A DNA stretch of 34,351 nt from Acidobacteriaceae bacterium (GTDB lineage Bacteria; Acidobacteriota; Terriglobia; Terriglobales; Acidobacteriaceae). This document shows, piece after piece, positions 4,514-30,654 of the stretch (position 1 is the stretch's first letter; every line of letters begins with the position of its first letter). The stretch lies in the NCBI GenBank assembly GCA_003156235.1, contig PMGP01000002.1:7535-41885 (forward strand). The letters run 5' to 3'. Below the pieces are notes generated by a model, which was given only the letters and a program-made list of their open reading frames with translations, was not told the DNA's origin and searched no databases. The position numbers and the translations under genes are program-made.

Positions 4514-5782
4514 CTATTCCAATTGCTCGAAGATGGCGGCAGCGCCCATGCCACCTCCCACGCACATGGTGACCATGCCGTAGCGGAGTTGGCGGCGGCG
4601 CATCTCGTTGAGCAGCGTGGTGGTGAGCTTTGCGCCGGTGCAGCCGAGCGGGTGGCCGAGGGCGATGGCGCCTCCGTTGACGTTAATACGCTCCGGGTCG
4701 AGGCCGAGTTCGCGGATGACGGCGAGAGCCTGCGCGGCAAAGGCTTCGTTGAGTTCGATGAGGCCGATGTCGGCCAGGGTGAGGCCAGCGCGGCTGAGGG
4801 CTTTGGGGATGGCAGTGATGGGACCGATGCCCATCTCCTCGGGCAGGCAGCCGGTGACGGCGTAGGCTACCAGGCGGCCGAGGGGTCGAAGGCCCAGTTC
4901 ATGGGCGTGGTTGGCTGCCATAAGAACAGCGGCGGCTGCGCCGTCGGAGATCTGCGAGGAGTTGCCGGCGGTGACGGTTCCCTGGGCGTGGAAGGCGGGT
5001 TTGAGCTTGGCCAGAGCTTCGAGCGAGGTATCGGCGCGCGGGCCTTCGTCAGCGGAGAAGATCGATTCGGTGACGGTTGGCTGCCCGATATCCCACCCCA
5101 GCGACGAAGACCTGTCGCCGGGGGCCCCGGCATCCCACCCCAGCGACGAAGAACTGTCGCCGGGGGCCCCGGTCTTCGCTCCGGGGACTGAAGTGGTGAC
5201 CTTCACCGGAATGAGTTCTTCGTCGAAGCGGCCGGCGGCCTGCGCGGCGAGTGCCTTTTCGTGGCTGGCGTGGGCGAAGGCGTCCTGATCTTCGCGAGAG
5301 ATTTTGTAGTGGCGGGCGACGTGCTCAGCGGTGAGGCCCATGGTGAGCAGCGCGGCGGGATAGTGCTCGGCGAGCCATGGATTGGGACTGGGCTTGAGGC
5401 CGCCCAAGGGCAGCAGGCTCATGGACTCGACGCCGCCGGCTACAACGACGCGGTTGCCGCAGGAGCGGATGCGCAGATCGGCCTGGACGATGGCTTCGAG
5501 GCCGGAGGCGCAGAGGCGATTGACGGTGACGCCGGGAACCTCGACCGGCAAACCGGCGCGCAGTGCGGCAAAGCGGGCGATGTTCCAGCCCTGTTCGCCC
5601 TCTGGCTGGGCGCAGCCGAGGATCACGTCATCGATTTCCGCGCGGTCAAGGCCGGGAACCCGCTGCAAAGCTCCGTTTATCGCAGTTGCGGCTAGCTCGT
5701 CGGGGCGAGTGGTGGAGAGAGCGCCTTTGGGGGCGCGGCCTACAGGAGTGCGTACGGCGCTGACGATGACGGCTTCCGGCAT
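4514..5782 (-). CDS. fadA: Acetyl-CoA C-acyltransferase (3-ketoacyl-CoA thiolase)
   Basis: This enzyme does the thiolytic cleavage step of fatty-acid beta-oxidation. The 422-residue protein starts [16 protein letters not shown] at an ATG with AAGGAGC just upstream; the ORF-track start 12 codons earlier lacks such a site. The thiolase active-site set is complete: nucleophile C91 (NRLCASG), H377 (GHPLGCTG) and C407 (TMCVGGGMG). Residues 205-232 are foreign to the family. They are two copies of a 14-residue unit ([14 protein letters not shown]) encoded by a 42-bp tandem repeat, placed just before the conserved [20 protein letters not shown] segment. This variable loop may tolerate insertion. The partner multifunctional enzyme fadN lies upstream on the same strand, with three other genes between. 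Confidence 0.93.
5090..5173. repeat. Tandem 42-bp repeat (2 copies) inserted in frame within fadA
   Basis: Two adjacent 42-base units, each starting atcccaccccagcgacgaag, differ at only two positions. Each unit can fold, because CCCCAGCGAC pairs with GTCGCCGGGG with one mismatch. As 42 is a multiple of three, the thiolase frame is kept. The opening words match intergenic repeats of the window, so this is likely a dispersed repeat that entered a gene and was then duplicated. Confidence 0.85.
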
Positions 5783-27320: not shown

Positions 27321-27743
27321 TCATTGGGCTGGAGCCGCTGGCTGGGCCGGTTGGGCCGGTTGGACCGGCGCCGCGTCTTTCGGCTTGGCCAGGAATTCAT
27401 CCACGCGCTTCTTGAAGTCACCCTGGTCATCGTGCTCCCAGCCGCTATAGTTTGACACCACTTGCATCTCGCAGCCCGTATCTTTCGGTACCAGGGTGAC
27501 GTGGTTGGTTCGCTGCAGGAGCGCTCCGGAGATGTTGACATGAACGGAGTGCTTGGGATGGAAGGAAGCTGTCAACTTGCTGTCGTCGCTCTTCACATCC
27601 GCGTAGTTTTTCGGATTGCCAAGGGTGTCTTTGACCGCACCCCACAGCTGGCTGCAAGGAACAGAATAGGTGTTCTTGTAAGTCTCGCCGAAGGCTGGCA
27701 GGGCAAGAGCGAGTGAGATCAAAATCACGAGTTTAGTCCCCAT
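27321..27743 (-). CDS. Small exported protein with proline/alanine/glutamine-rich tail
   Basis: The 140-residue product has a signal peptide (MGTKLVILISLALALPAFGE) after a GGAGG site. The mature part is about 100 residues, with alternating strands (KLTASFHPKHSVHVNISGALLQRTNHVTLVPKD) and two cysteines, and no family I can name with confidence. The last 18 residues are a low-complexity tail of PAQ/PAA units. It is transcribed alone on the minus strand between repeat-rich gaps. A lipid-binding or START-like fold is conceivable from the 'SQLWGAVKDTL...' opening, but this is speculation. Confidence 0.75.
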   Translation of the reverse strand: MGTKLVILISLALALPAFGETYKNTYSVPCSQLWGAVKDTLGNPKNYADVKSDDSKLTASFHPKHSVHVNISGALLQRTNHVTLVPKDTGCEMQVVSNYSGWEHDDQGDFKKRVDEFLAKPKDAAPVQPAQPAQPAAPAQ

Positions 27744-28044
27744 TATGGCTTACCTCCTCCTACCGATGTGCTTCCCGGAATGAGAAAAAACTGAACAGGG
27801 CGCCCCAATTTTAACTGGCAAGCGCAGAATACTCCATCGAAAGATCTGGTCTGTGCGTCAAGTCACATCATGTAGTGATGAGAGCGGTTTTTTCAGTCAA
27901 TGCGGAGTTTCGAGAATCGCGCACGGCGGCTTTAACTTTCACCCCAGGCCGGTGCCCAGGTCTCGCTTTTGAGTGAAACCTGGGGCGCCCGATCCTGGCG
28001 GAGGGTGAGATGTGAGGGCACGCGCGGGCGGGTGAGCCGGGAAG
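27744..28044. other. 300-bp intergenic region with an imperfect GAGACC-type palindrome
   Basis: CCCAGGT...ACCTGGG arms at about 27954-27985 make a third, degraded copy of the palindrome, followed by the gcgcccgatcctggc word. CATCA/TGATG (27866-27880) is a small inverted repeat. No gene or clear promoter was found. Confidence 0.5.
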
Positions 28045-29364
28045 CTAGCCAGCGCTTTCAGCGTCGTAGGCGATGCGGCCTTCGCTGATGGTCCAGCGGA
28101 CCTTGCCTTGCATCGTCCAGCCGTCGAAGGGGCTGTTGTGGGACTTGGATTTGCCTTCGTGGGCGCGGTAGGTCCACTCGGCCTTGGGATCAAAGACGAC
28201 CAGGTCGGCGAAGCTGCCCACGGCGAGGGTTCCGCGGCCCTTCAGGTTCAAGAGCGCGGCAGGCTGGGCGCTCAAGAGGCTCAGGACGCGGCCCAGGGGC
28301 ATCTTCCACTCCCGGTGCAGCCAGCGCAGGCTGAGGCCGAGGGCCGTCTCCAGGCCGATGATGCCGTTGGGGGCGAGGTCGAACTCGACCTCCTTCTCGT
28401 GGACGGCGTGGGGGGCGTGGTCGGTGGCGATGGCGTCAACGACACCGTCCAGAATGGCCTCGATGAGGGCCTCGCGGTCGGCGGCCGAGCGCAAGGGCGG
28501 GCACACCTTGGCGTGAGTGTCATAGAGGCCGACGTGCTCGTCGGTGAGCAGGAAGTGGTGGGGGGTGACCTCGCAGGTGACGCGCAGGCCGCTGCGGCGG
28601 GCCTGGCGAACGGCGTTCAGGGCGGCGGCCGTCGAGATGTGGGCCACGTGCAGATGCGGGCGGGCCTCGCGCAGGCTGGTGACCAGGCGGATGTCGCGCT
28701 CGACGATCGAGGACTCGGCCTCGTTGGGCCAGCCGCGCAGGCCGAGCTTGAAGGCCACGGGACCGGCGTTCATGGCGGCCGTCATGCCGGGGATTTGGGT
28801 GAGGCGCGTGTCCTCGGCGTGCTGGATGACGGCGAGGCCGGCGCGGGCCGCGGCGGTGAGGGCCTCGCGCATGACGCTTTCCTTGAGGATGGGCAGACCG
28901 TCGTCCGAAACGGCCACGGCGCCGGCGGACTTGAGGGCGGCGTAGTCGTTGATGGTCTCGCCCTTCAGGCCGCGGGTGGCGGCGGCGATGGGGAAGACGC
29001 GGACAGATGCGTTGCGGTCGGCAGCCTGCATCCAGCGGGTGGCCTCCGGCGAGTCGTTGGGCGGGCGCGTGTTGGGCATGGCGGCCACGGCGGTGAATCC
29101 GCCGGCCGCCGCCGCCGCCGTGCCGGTGGCGATGGTCTCCTTATGGGTCTGGCCGGGCTCGCGCAGATGGACGTGCATATCGATGAGGCCAGGGGCGACG
29201 GTGAGGCCGGTGGCATCGAGGACTTGGGTTCCGTTGGCGGATTTGAGCTTGCCGGGGGCGGCGATCTCGGCGACGCGGCCCTCCTTGAGCAGAATGTCCT
29301 TGAGGGCATCGATGCCGGCGGCCGGATCGACGAGGTGGCCGCCGCGAATGATCAGTGCCGTCAT
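28045..29364 (-). CDS. pyrC: Dihydroorotase
   Basis: The 439-residue enzyme closes carbamoyl-aspartate to dihydroorotate in pyrimidine synthesis. It is a class I, multifunctional-type dihydroorotase. The metal site HxH is at H64/H66 (DMHVHLREPGQTHKET), and later come the histidine in VIQHAED, HVAHIST, and the catalytic aspartate in IATDHAPHAVHEKE. The length is normal. The ATG follows GGAGG and overlaps the pyrB stop (ATGA), so pyrB and pyrC are translationally coupled. This fits the known pairing of class I dihydroorotase with aspartate carbamoyltransferase. Confidence 0.96.
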   Translation of the reverse strand: MTALIIRGGHLVDPAAGIDALKDILLKEGRVAEIAAPGKLKSANGTQVLDATGLTVAPGLIDMHVHLREPGQTHKETIATGTAAAAAGGFTAVAAMPNTRPPNDSPEATRWMQAADRNASVRVFPIAAATRGLKGETINDYAALKSAGAVAVSDDGLPILKESVMREALTAAARAGLAVIQHAEDTRLTQIPGMTAAMNAGPVAFKLGLRGWPNEAESSIVERDIRLVTSLREARPHLHVAHISTAAALNAVRQARRSGLRVTCEVTPHHFLLTDEHVGLYDTHAKVCPPLRSAADREALIEAILDGVVDAIATDHAPHAVHEKEVEFDLAPNGIIGLETALGLSLRWLHREWKMPLGRVLSLLSAQPAALLNLKGRGTLAVGSFADLVVFDPKAEWTYRAHEGKSKSHNSPFDGWTMQGKVRWTISEGRIAYDAESAG

Positions 29365-30533
29365 GCGCGGCCTCCGTTTCCAGCCGTAGCCGGCAGGGTT
29401 CCGGTCGAGTTTTCAGATGAGGCCGTGAGGGCCCGTTCGAGGACGGCCATGCGGATGGCGACGCCATGGCGGACCTGTTCGAGAATCAGCGACTGAGGGC
29501 CGTCGGCGACGCCGGCGGTGATCTCGAGGCCGCGGATGATGGGGCCCGGATGGAGCACCAGGGCCGAGGGCGCGTAGGCGGCCAGCCGCTGGCCGGTGAG
29601 CTGGTAAGCGGCTTTGTACTCTTCGAGTTCCAGTTGCAGACCGGCCAGCCGCTCGGCCTGAATGCGCAGCATCATCACCGCCTGGGACTGGCCGAGGGCG
29701 GCTTCGAGGTTGCGCTCGATACTGATGCCGGGACCAGCCGCGGCCGCCAGTTCGGGCAGAAGCTGCGGAGGGCCGCAGAGCAGGACGCGCGCGCCCAGAC
29801 GGGGCAGCAGCAGCATATTCGAGCGGGCCACGCGGCTGTGCAGAATGTCGCCGACGATGGCGACGGTGACGCCGGAGAGGGTTTCGGGGGTGAGCTGATC
29901 GATGACTGGGGCTGGCGAGGACGAAAGAGACGCAGGTCCTTCGACTCCCTGCGCTGCGCTGCGGTCGCTCAGGATGACAGAGTTTTTATCGTACTCAAGA
30001 TGAAAGGTTTTTGTAGCCGGGTCAAAATGGGCCAGAATCGTCCGCAGGTCGAGCAGCGCCTGGGTGGGGTGCGCGTGCATACCGTCGCCGGCGTTGAGCA
30101 CGGGCAGGCGGGTTGCGGCCTCGAGCAGCCAGGGAGCGCCGGAGCAGTTGTGGCGCAGGATGATGGCCTCGGCTCCCAGGGCGCGCAGGGTCAGGCCGGT
30201 GTCCTTCAGCGACTCGCCCTTCTCAATGCTCGAAGAGAGGTTGGAGACCAGCGCGGTGTCGGCGCCGAGGCTTTTGGCGGCCAGCTCGAAGCTGGTGCGG
30301 GTGCGGGTCGAGGATTCGTAAAAGAGCAGCGCGATGCGGCGATGGGCCAGCGTGCGGGCGCGCGGCAGCGGGTCCTGATTCTCCAGAGCCGTGGCGCGGG
30401 CCAGCAAATGGCTCAGGTCTTCCAGGGTCAGGTCCTGGATCGAGAGCAGCGAACCGCGATGATAGGGAAACGGCGAGGCCGGAACGGGCGGAAGATGAAG
30501 CTGGCGGCGGGTTGGGGTGGCGGTCGGAGTCAT
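29361..30533 (-). CDS. pyrB: Aspartate carbamoyltransferase with an in-frame repeat-derived insertion
   Basis: The 390-residue enzyme joins carbamoyl phosphate and aspartate. Motifs are complete: STRTRTSFE (75-83) and RHNCSGAP (127-134) for carbamoyl phosphate, HPTQALLD (155-162), GDILHSRVARS, RIQAERL and HPGPIIRGLE (from about 328). Family members are about 305-320 residues. The excess comes from N- and C-terminal extensions plus residues about 176-206 (HLEYDKNSVILSDRSAAQGVEG...), between the two domains and just before VAIVGDILHSR. The DNA there matches a CATCCTGAGCGA...GTCGAAGGACC type intergenic repeat. The start chosen has AAAGG upstream; the track start 38 codons earlier runs into repeat DNA. 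It should be active if the loop is surface exposed. Confidence 0.93.
   Translation of the reverse strand: MTPTATPTRRQLHLPPVPASPFPYHRGSLLSIQDLTLEDLSHLLARATALENQDPLPRARTLAHRRIALLFYESSTRTRTSFELAAKSLGADTALVSNLSSSIEKGESLKDTGLTLRALGAEAIILRHNCSGAPWLLEAATRLPVLNAGDGMHAHPTQALLDLRTILAHFDPATKTFHLEYDKNSVILSDRSAAQGVEGPASLSSSPAPVIDQLTPETLSGVTVAIVGDILHSRVARSNMLLLPRLGARVLLCGPPQLLPELAAAAGPGISIERNLEAALGQSQAVMMLRIQAERLAGLQLELEEYKAAYQLTGQRLAAYAPSALVLHPGPIIRGLEITAGVADGPQSLILEQVRHGVAIRMAVLERALTASSENSTGTLPATAGNGGRA
29917..30008. repeat. Dispersed repeat inside pyrB (TCATCCTGAGCG...GTCGAAGGACC)
   Basis: On the coding strand the stretch reads ctgtcatcctgagcgaccg, then gcagcgcagggagtcgaagg and acctgcgtctctttcg. This is the wording of a repeat commonly seen between genes in acidobacteria and other bacteria. 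Here it is inside an essential gene and keeps the frame. The encoded peptide has no counterpart in ordinary aspartate carbamoyltransferases. Confidence 0.7.
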
Positions 30534-30584
30534 TTTTTCAACCTTTATTGATTCGGCCCGATTGCGTGAGACCCTCTTTCCCAC

Positions 30585-30609
30585 CCATTCCGCAAAATAC
30601 GCGGAATGG
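30585..30609. repeat. Palindrome between pyrR and pyrB (CCATTCCGC/GCGGAATGG)
   Basis: Perfect 9-base arms around AAAATAC, flanked by cccac on one side and atggggcacccaggtctt on the other. This is the same repeat style as at 4389-4470. It sits in the pyrR-pyrB gap, about 50 bases before the pyrB start. Confidence 0.65.
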
Positions 30610-30654
30610 ATGGGGCACCCAGGTCTTACTCTTGAGGGCCGGATCAATAACCAT

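Follow-up and report, generated by a model that had tools for sequence, protein, structure and literature searches.

In-frame copies of a short dispersed repeat in the inter-domain linker of aspartate carbamoyltransferase and in other core enzymes of Acidobacteriaceae

Introduction

Dispersed repeats lying in frame within core genes have hitherto been regarded as mostly peculiar to Rickettsia and Wolbachia, apart from scattered cases involving REPs. The Rickettsia palindromic elements (RPEs: RPE-1 and others), together with those of Wolbachia, are short dispersed repeats that lie in frame in a large number of unrelated core genes; an insert is often present at the same locus in orthologues, and a genome can hold more than one repeat family (PMC10969869, PMC3767692). 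The intragenic REPs, with GTAG or CGTC tags, of for example Opitutus terrae, R. conorii and Xanthomonas recB are palindromic units of 20-50 bp, sometimes dimers, that are also in frame; in recB, two Xanthomonas species have different REPs at nearly the same site, and the idea of a tolerant linker has already been published (PMC3733652). ERIC, BOX and other bacterial MITEs, which are non-autonomous, can likewise be a source of coding sequence (PMC10969869, PMC2759123).

The DNA studied here is a stretch of 34,351 nt (hereafter the window) from an Acidobacteriaceae bacterium, G000 (GCA_003156235.1, contig PMGP01000002.1, positions 7,535-41,885 of the forward strand). Its aspartate carbamoyltransferase (ATCase) catalytic subunit, PyrB, contains 37 residues that are very probably a translated interspersed repeat in the inter-domain linker, a site where repeats would turn over and alleles be exchanged. 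A search of the literature, largely without subscription papers, found no relevant paper on the repeat sequence or its translated forms.

Results

The pyrB gene (window positions 29361-30533, minus strand) is intact and encodes 390 amino acids that match PRK00856 and TIGR00670 above cut-off. The protein contains STRTR, SSIEKGES, HPTQ, GDILHSR, LRIQAER and HPGPI, which we take to be the full set of ATCase catalytic motifs, and the pyrC gene overlaps the pyrB stop. The sister genome G027, which matches this region at ~88-95% in five long blocks, lacks 111 bp of G000 pyrB (29895-30005, minus strand), as do ~65 other PyrBs of the genus. Comparison with this empty site indicates a single clean in-frame insertion, flanked on both sides by pyrB sequence with 92-99% identity to G027 in most 150-base stretches. 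An initial annotation, which proposed the alignment with relatives, had described an in-frame insertion of about 30 residues at 176-206; the insertion is real and its place was right, but it spans residues 177-213. That annotation also called this insert and a second one, in fadA, Ser/Gly/Asp-rich, which is true of fadA, whereas the insert in PyrB is rich in Ser and Ala and poor in Gly.

Within the insertion is an exact 41-bp copy of a repeat, TCATCCTGAGCG...GTCGAAGGA (29937-29977, minus strand), read as (V)ILSDRSAAQGVEG(P), as expected from the earlier proposal that an intergenic-type repeat encodes the insert. It is preceded by the decayed head of a further copy, FHLEYDKNS (29979-30005, minus strand), whose counterpart in the related genome G003 is still RHPERDKGP (CATCCTGAGCG); this half-copy reads CATCTTGAGTAC in G000 and CATCCTGAGCGC in G003. 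The 111 bp exceed the length of one repeat element, and the insertion may at first have had another form, a point against the reading as a translated repeat.

The pattern TCATCCTGAGCG-N-GTCGAAGGA has 33 exact copies in the G000 genome, while the reversed control pattern has none there or in any of the 80 genomes of the genus; chance wording is therefore ruled out as the source of the PyrB repeat. Each repeat end occurs once in the window. The repeat was present in 63 of the 80 genus genomes and in 24 of 297 genomes sampled across the phylum, only two of those 24 lying outside the family. Its build is one of fixed ends around a variable and often palindromic middle, with exact copies in G000 ranging from 23 to 51 bp and units mostly of 31-51 bp; by inspection, the 51-bp copies have clear complementary arms. 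An RNA hairpin was rejected at the pyrB copy, where folding was no better than that of shuffles, and no known RNA family was found for the repeat. In each of four reading frames, 27 or 28 of the 33 copies are free of stops. The fadA insert (5084-5170, minus strand), two tandem units of 42 bp, belongs to a second repeat family with ~40 places in the genome, in agreement with the initial view that the two inserts are of different families.

Repeats were also seen in the spacers around pyrB and pyrC. Upstream of pyrB, the spacer of G000 contains a further inverted repeat, CCCACCCATTCCGCAAAATACGCGGAATGGATGGGGCACCC (30579-30622 of the window), which G027 does not have. The spacer after pyrC (27560-28045 of the window, compared with locus L120) is unrelated between the two genomes, and in G027 it contains the pyrB-type repeat in a slightly diverged form.

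An AlphaFold2 model built with 38 sequences gave a confident two-domain PyrB fold (pTM 0.83), for which the best Foldseek match was the Bacillus subtilis ATCase 3r7l (TM 0.91 by target length); both this fold and the catalytic motifs are those of an aspartate carbamoyltransferase. Residues 190-208 had pLDDT below 50 and the remainder was modelled with confidence. The insert lies between helix 156-169, whose start directly follows the active-site histidine (in HPTQ), and strand 223-227, the first in the domain that binds aspartate. A structural model had been suggested as a check on loop exposure and on any functional placement in the active site; in the prediction the insert is a disordered inter-domain loop, best seen as a floppy segment about one helix length from the active-site histidine.

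Across the genus (~75 PyrBs) the usual linker is about a dozen residues, LRPGxxxVxxxTL, and nine of these proteins carry 16-38 extra, repeat-like residues at the linker, with differing sequences. G000 and G003 have VILSDRSAAQGVEGP, G052 has CHPERAKRVEGP, G042 has CHPELSKNRHPERSRSAAQ, and G001 has VILSDRK..VIPSEA..VILSGARRASAVEGS; the inserts of G016 and G039 are decayed forms, and that of G050 resembles, by inspection, a different repeat (TGGGTGCCCCAGGTCC..GGGGACCTGGG). The ninth carrier is a cultured strain, Occallatibacter savannae AB23 (G009, locus L145), with VIPSEARAASAAEGS, and the insert is thus not an artefact of metagenome assembly. The same element appears in two frames among the carriers, HPER and VILS. 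A misassembly at the repeat or a decaying gene might be expected of a fragmented source genome of 78% completeness, but with the frame intact, every catalytic motif present and similar inserts in eight other assemblies, the cultured strain among them, this explanation is hardly credible.

The carriers do not form one clade. In a PyrB tree made without the linker columns, the well-supported branches cannot be reconciled with fewer than six changes, which rules out a single vertical origin, and G000 pairs at full support with the empty-site genome G027. A flank of the form [FL]D[PL]xx[KR] nevertheless precedes the insert in 9/9 carriers and in no non-carrier, the latter being without the D. The scattered carriers and their common flank together suggest that an insert-bearing allele probably moved from species to species within the genus through local homologous recombination, with its contents turning over. 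At sites that differ between G000 and G027, G003 has the G000 state at 15 of 17 inside residues 171-237 and at 15 of 41 outside them (p = 0.0004). This mosaic patch is best explained by recombination, which would have brought an insert-bearing segment into G000 or an insert-free one into G027.

It is possible, though we think it doubtful, that each lineage independently received its own repeat in the same tolerant linker and that there was no common allele. The scatter of carriers on the tree would be expected under such insertions, as would the differences among them in insert type, frame and length, and a linker of MnmG likewise holds different repeat types, at least two or three, from one species to another. 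Independent insertion leaves unexplained, however, why the flanking motif marks all nine carriers and no other PyrB, why G000, G003 and G052 have VEGPAS and a downstream TPETL segment in common, and why G000 and G003 also share the first half-copy.

The codons of the insert gave a mixed picture. Over the 17 codons of its core, G000 and G003 differ by three synonymous changes and no amino-acid change, while of the nine codons before the core five differ, all of them changing the amino acid. Conservation of the core could hint at constraint, but a recent shared origin could explain it too and the numbers are small; a young age, conversion or mild constraint of the core would each be compatible with these codons. 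Relatives sharing the insert under purifying selection had been named as a finding that would speak against the repeat reading; inserts were found in relatives, but their lengths and sequences differ widely, and neither the G000/G003 codons nor the genus alignment showed purifying selection.

These codons also bear on the idea of a domesticated loop, kept for a role such as regulation or assembly with the product of the translationally overlapping pyrC. The synonymous-only core is compatible with such a role, as are the overlap of pyrC with the pyrB stop and the known PyrB-dihydroorotase complex of Aquifex (3d6n). We nevertheless regard it as very improbable, given that the sister species and most of the genus are without the insert and that peptides of this kind are found in unrelated enzymes as well; the free variation of insert length and sequence across carriers also speaks against a conserved function.

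PyrB is one of six conserved enzymes of G000 that together hold 7 of the 33 exact copies in frame, each flanked on either side by homologous sequence: PyrB, a NifS-type cysteine desulfurase, TsaD (L045), IspE, MnmG (two copies) and aconitase. Three of these enzymes show the repeat as a gap against solved structures, and FolK has an in-frame copy near its C-terminus. All seven intragenic copies are in the 41-51 bp classes, with none among the 20 shorter copies (p = 0.0004), and their most frequent reading is the antisense one, GPST...AQDD. This census rests on retrieved loci, and spanning open reading frames that had no family support on both sides (L051, L049, L067 and L044) were left out of the count. 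Four of the five exact 41-43 bp copies in G000, those with a GACC...GG middle, were within conserved genes, and none of the 33-bp class was.

The two in-frame copies in MnmG (G000:C352; L061, L062) are of the 51-bp repeat and read GPSTAQVAKNATCSAQDD and GPSTAQVAKDATCSAQDD. The first site is filled in G003 too (L320), while the second varies within the genus. After the PyrB linker, a linker of MnmG is thus the second recurrent site in the genus, where GPST, CHPERSEGS and a third type, DVLKGHDFSRA, are found; this third translated repeat occupies the same MnmG linker in G050 and G041 (L231, L235). By reading, the fadA-type repeat was found in a membrane protein and, in frame, in a TsaB-like protein (L348:1059-1898), in the same genome where TsaD has the pyrB-type repeat. 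An ABC transporter ATPase-like open reading frame of 356 aa in G039 (L306) has GPSTRPPYGGLAQDDNQ in frame.

The intragenic habit is not a rule of the genus. In T. gabretensis 0 of 25 copies lie in a gene that is recognisably conserved, and in G039 the count is 1 of 30, against 7 of 33 in G000 (p = 0.004); among 15 retrieved loci each, one intragenic copy was counted in G052 and two in G003. The initial suggestion that this lineage tolerates the conversion of repeats to protein is upheld by the further conserved enzymes and by the fadA-family repeat in the TsaB-like protein, although the PyrB site is a recurrent linker and no one-off, and the habit is uneven among relatives.

Discussion

The history that we favour would begin with a short, REP-like element, transposed by an enzyme acting in trans, entering PyrB at the short linker that joins its carbamoyl-phosphate and aspartate domains. 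Copies that broke the frame or fell into folded parts would have been lost by selection, and copies in flexible surface linkers would have survived. Survival within genes would follow from the element being normally free of stops in four of its six frames, and from the lack of any sequence requirement in a surface linker. The lengthened PyrB linker would then have kept gaining, losing and swapping repeat segments, some of which decayed, and the insert-bearing allele would have been exchanged between species by recombination. The open frame predicts that the insert is translated, and its presence is presumably close to neutral.

Y1 transposases, found in 78 of 79 genus genomes, were considered as the partner of the repeat and showed no association with it: only 1 of 30 Y1_Tnp loci sampled in the genus had a repeat end nearby, and no transposase could be tied to the repeat among them. 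Nor could a target-site duplication be tied to it, the flanks of filled and empty pyrB sites being too diverged at the join.

A more speculative idea, which we consider unlikely, is that the several repeat families of Acidobacteriaceae are a standing supply of stop-free, hydrophilic linker peptides, for which the PyrB and MnmG linkers would serve as recurrent docking sites with exchange between species by recombination, some peptides being kept for tuning the enzyme.

The habit of carrying repeats in core genes now extends to free-living soil bacteria with large genomes and several repeat families. About 80 related genomes display filled, empty and differently filled states of one linker, which makes it directly testable whether inserts of this kind are neutral passengers or serve proteins as raw material. 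Linkers built from repeats can also mislead alignments and annotations.

The repeat resembles RPEs in that it, too, is in frame in several unrelated genes that remain unbroken (seven copies, six enzymes). The RPE unit is ~100-150 bp, however, and the repeat described here 23-51 bp, mostly 31-51 bp; RPE hosts are reduced intracellular bacteria, whereas the bacterium studied here is free-living in soil and its genome measures 4-6 Mb; and the repeat's occupancy of genes varies sharply between close relatives. The comparison with RPEs is one of description, not of sequence, and in the phylum sample nearly all genomes with the repeat are from one family. It differs from REPs in that both the GTAG and the CGTC tag are absent from its ends, TCATCCTGAGCG and GTCGAAGGA, and that no RAYT gene could be tied to it, as judged from the same Y1_Tnp loci. 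MITEs are much longer and have terminal inverted repeats and target-site duplications, neither of which was shown for this repeat. Since it fails the REP tag test and does not have the size of an RPE, we do not file it as a member of either family; the Acidobacteriaceae repeat is functionally like RPEs and intragenic REPs but lies outside their defining features.
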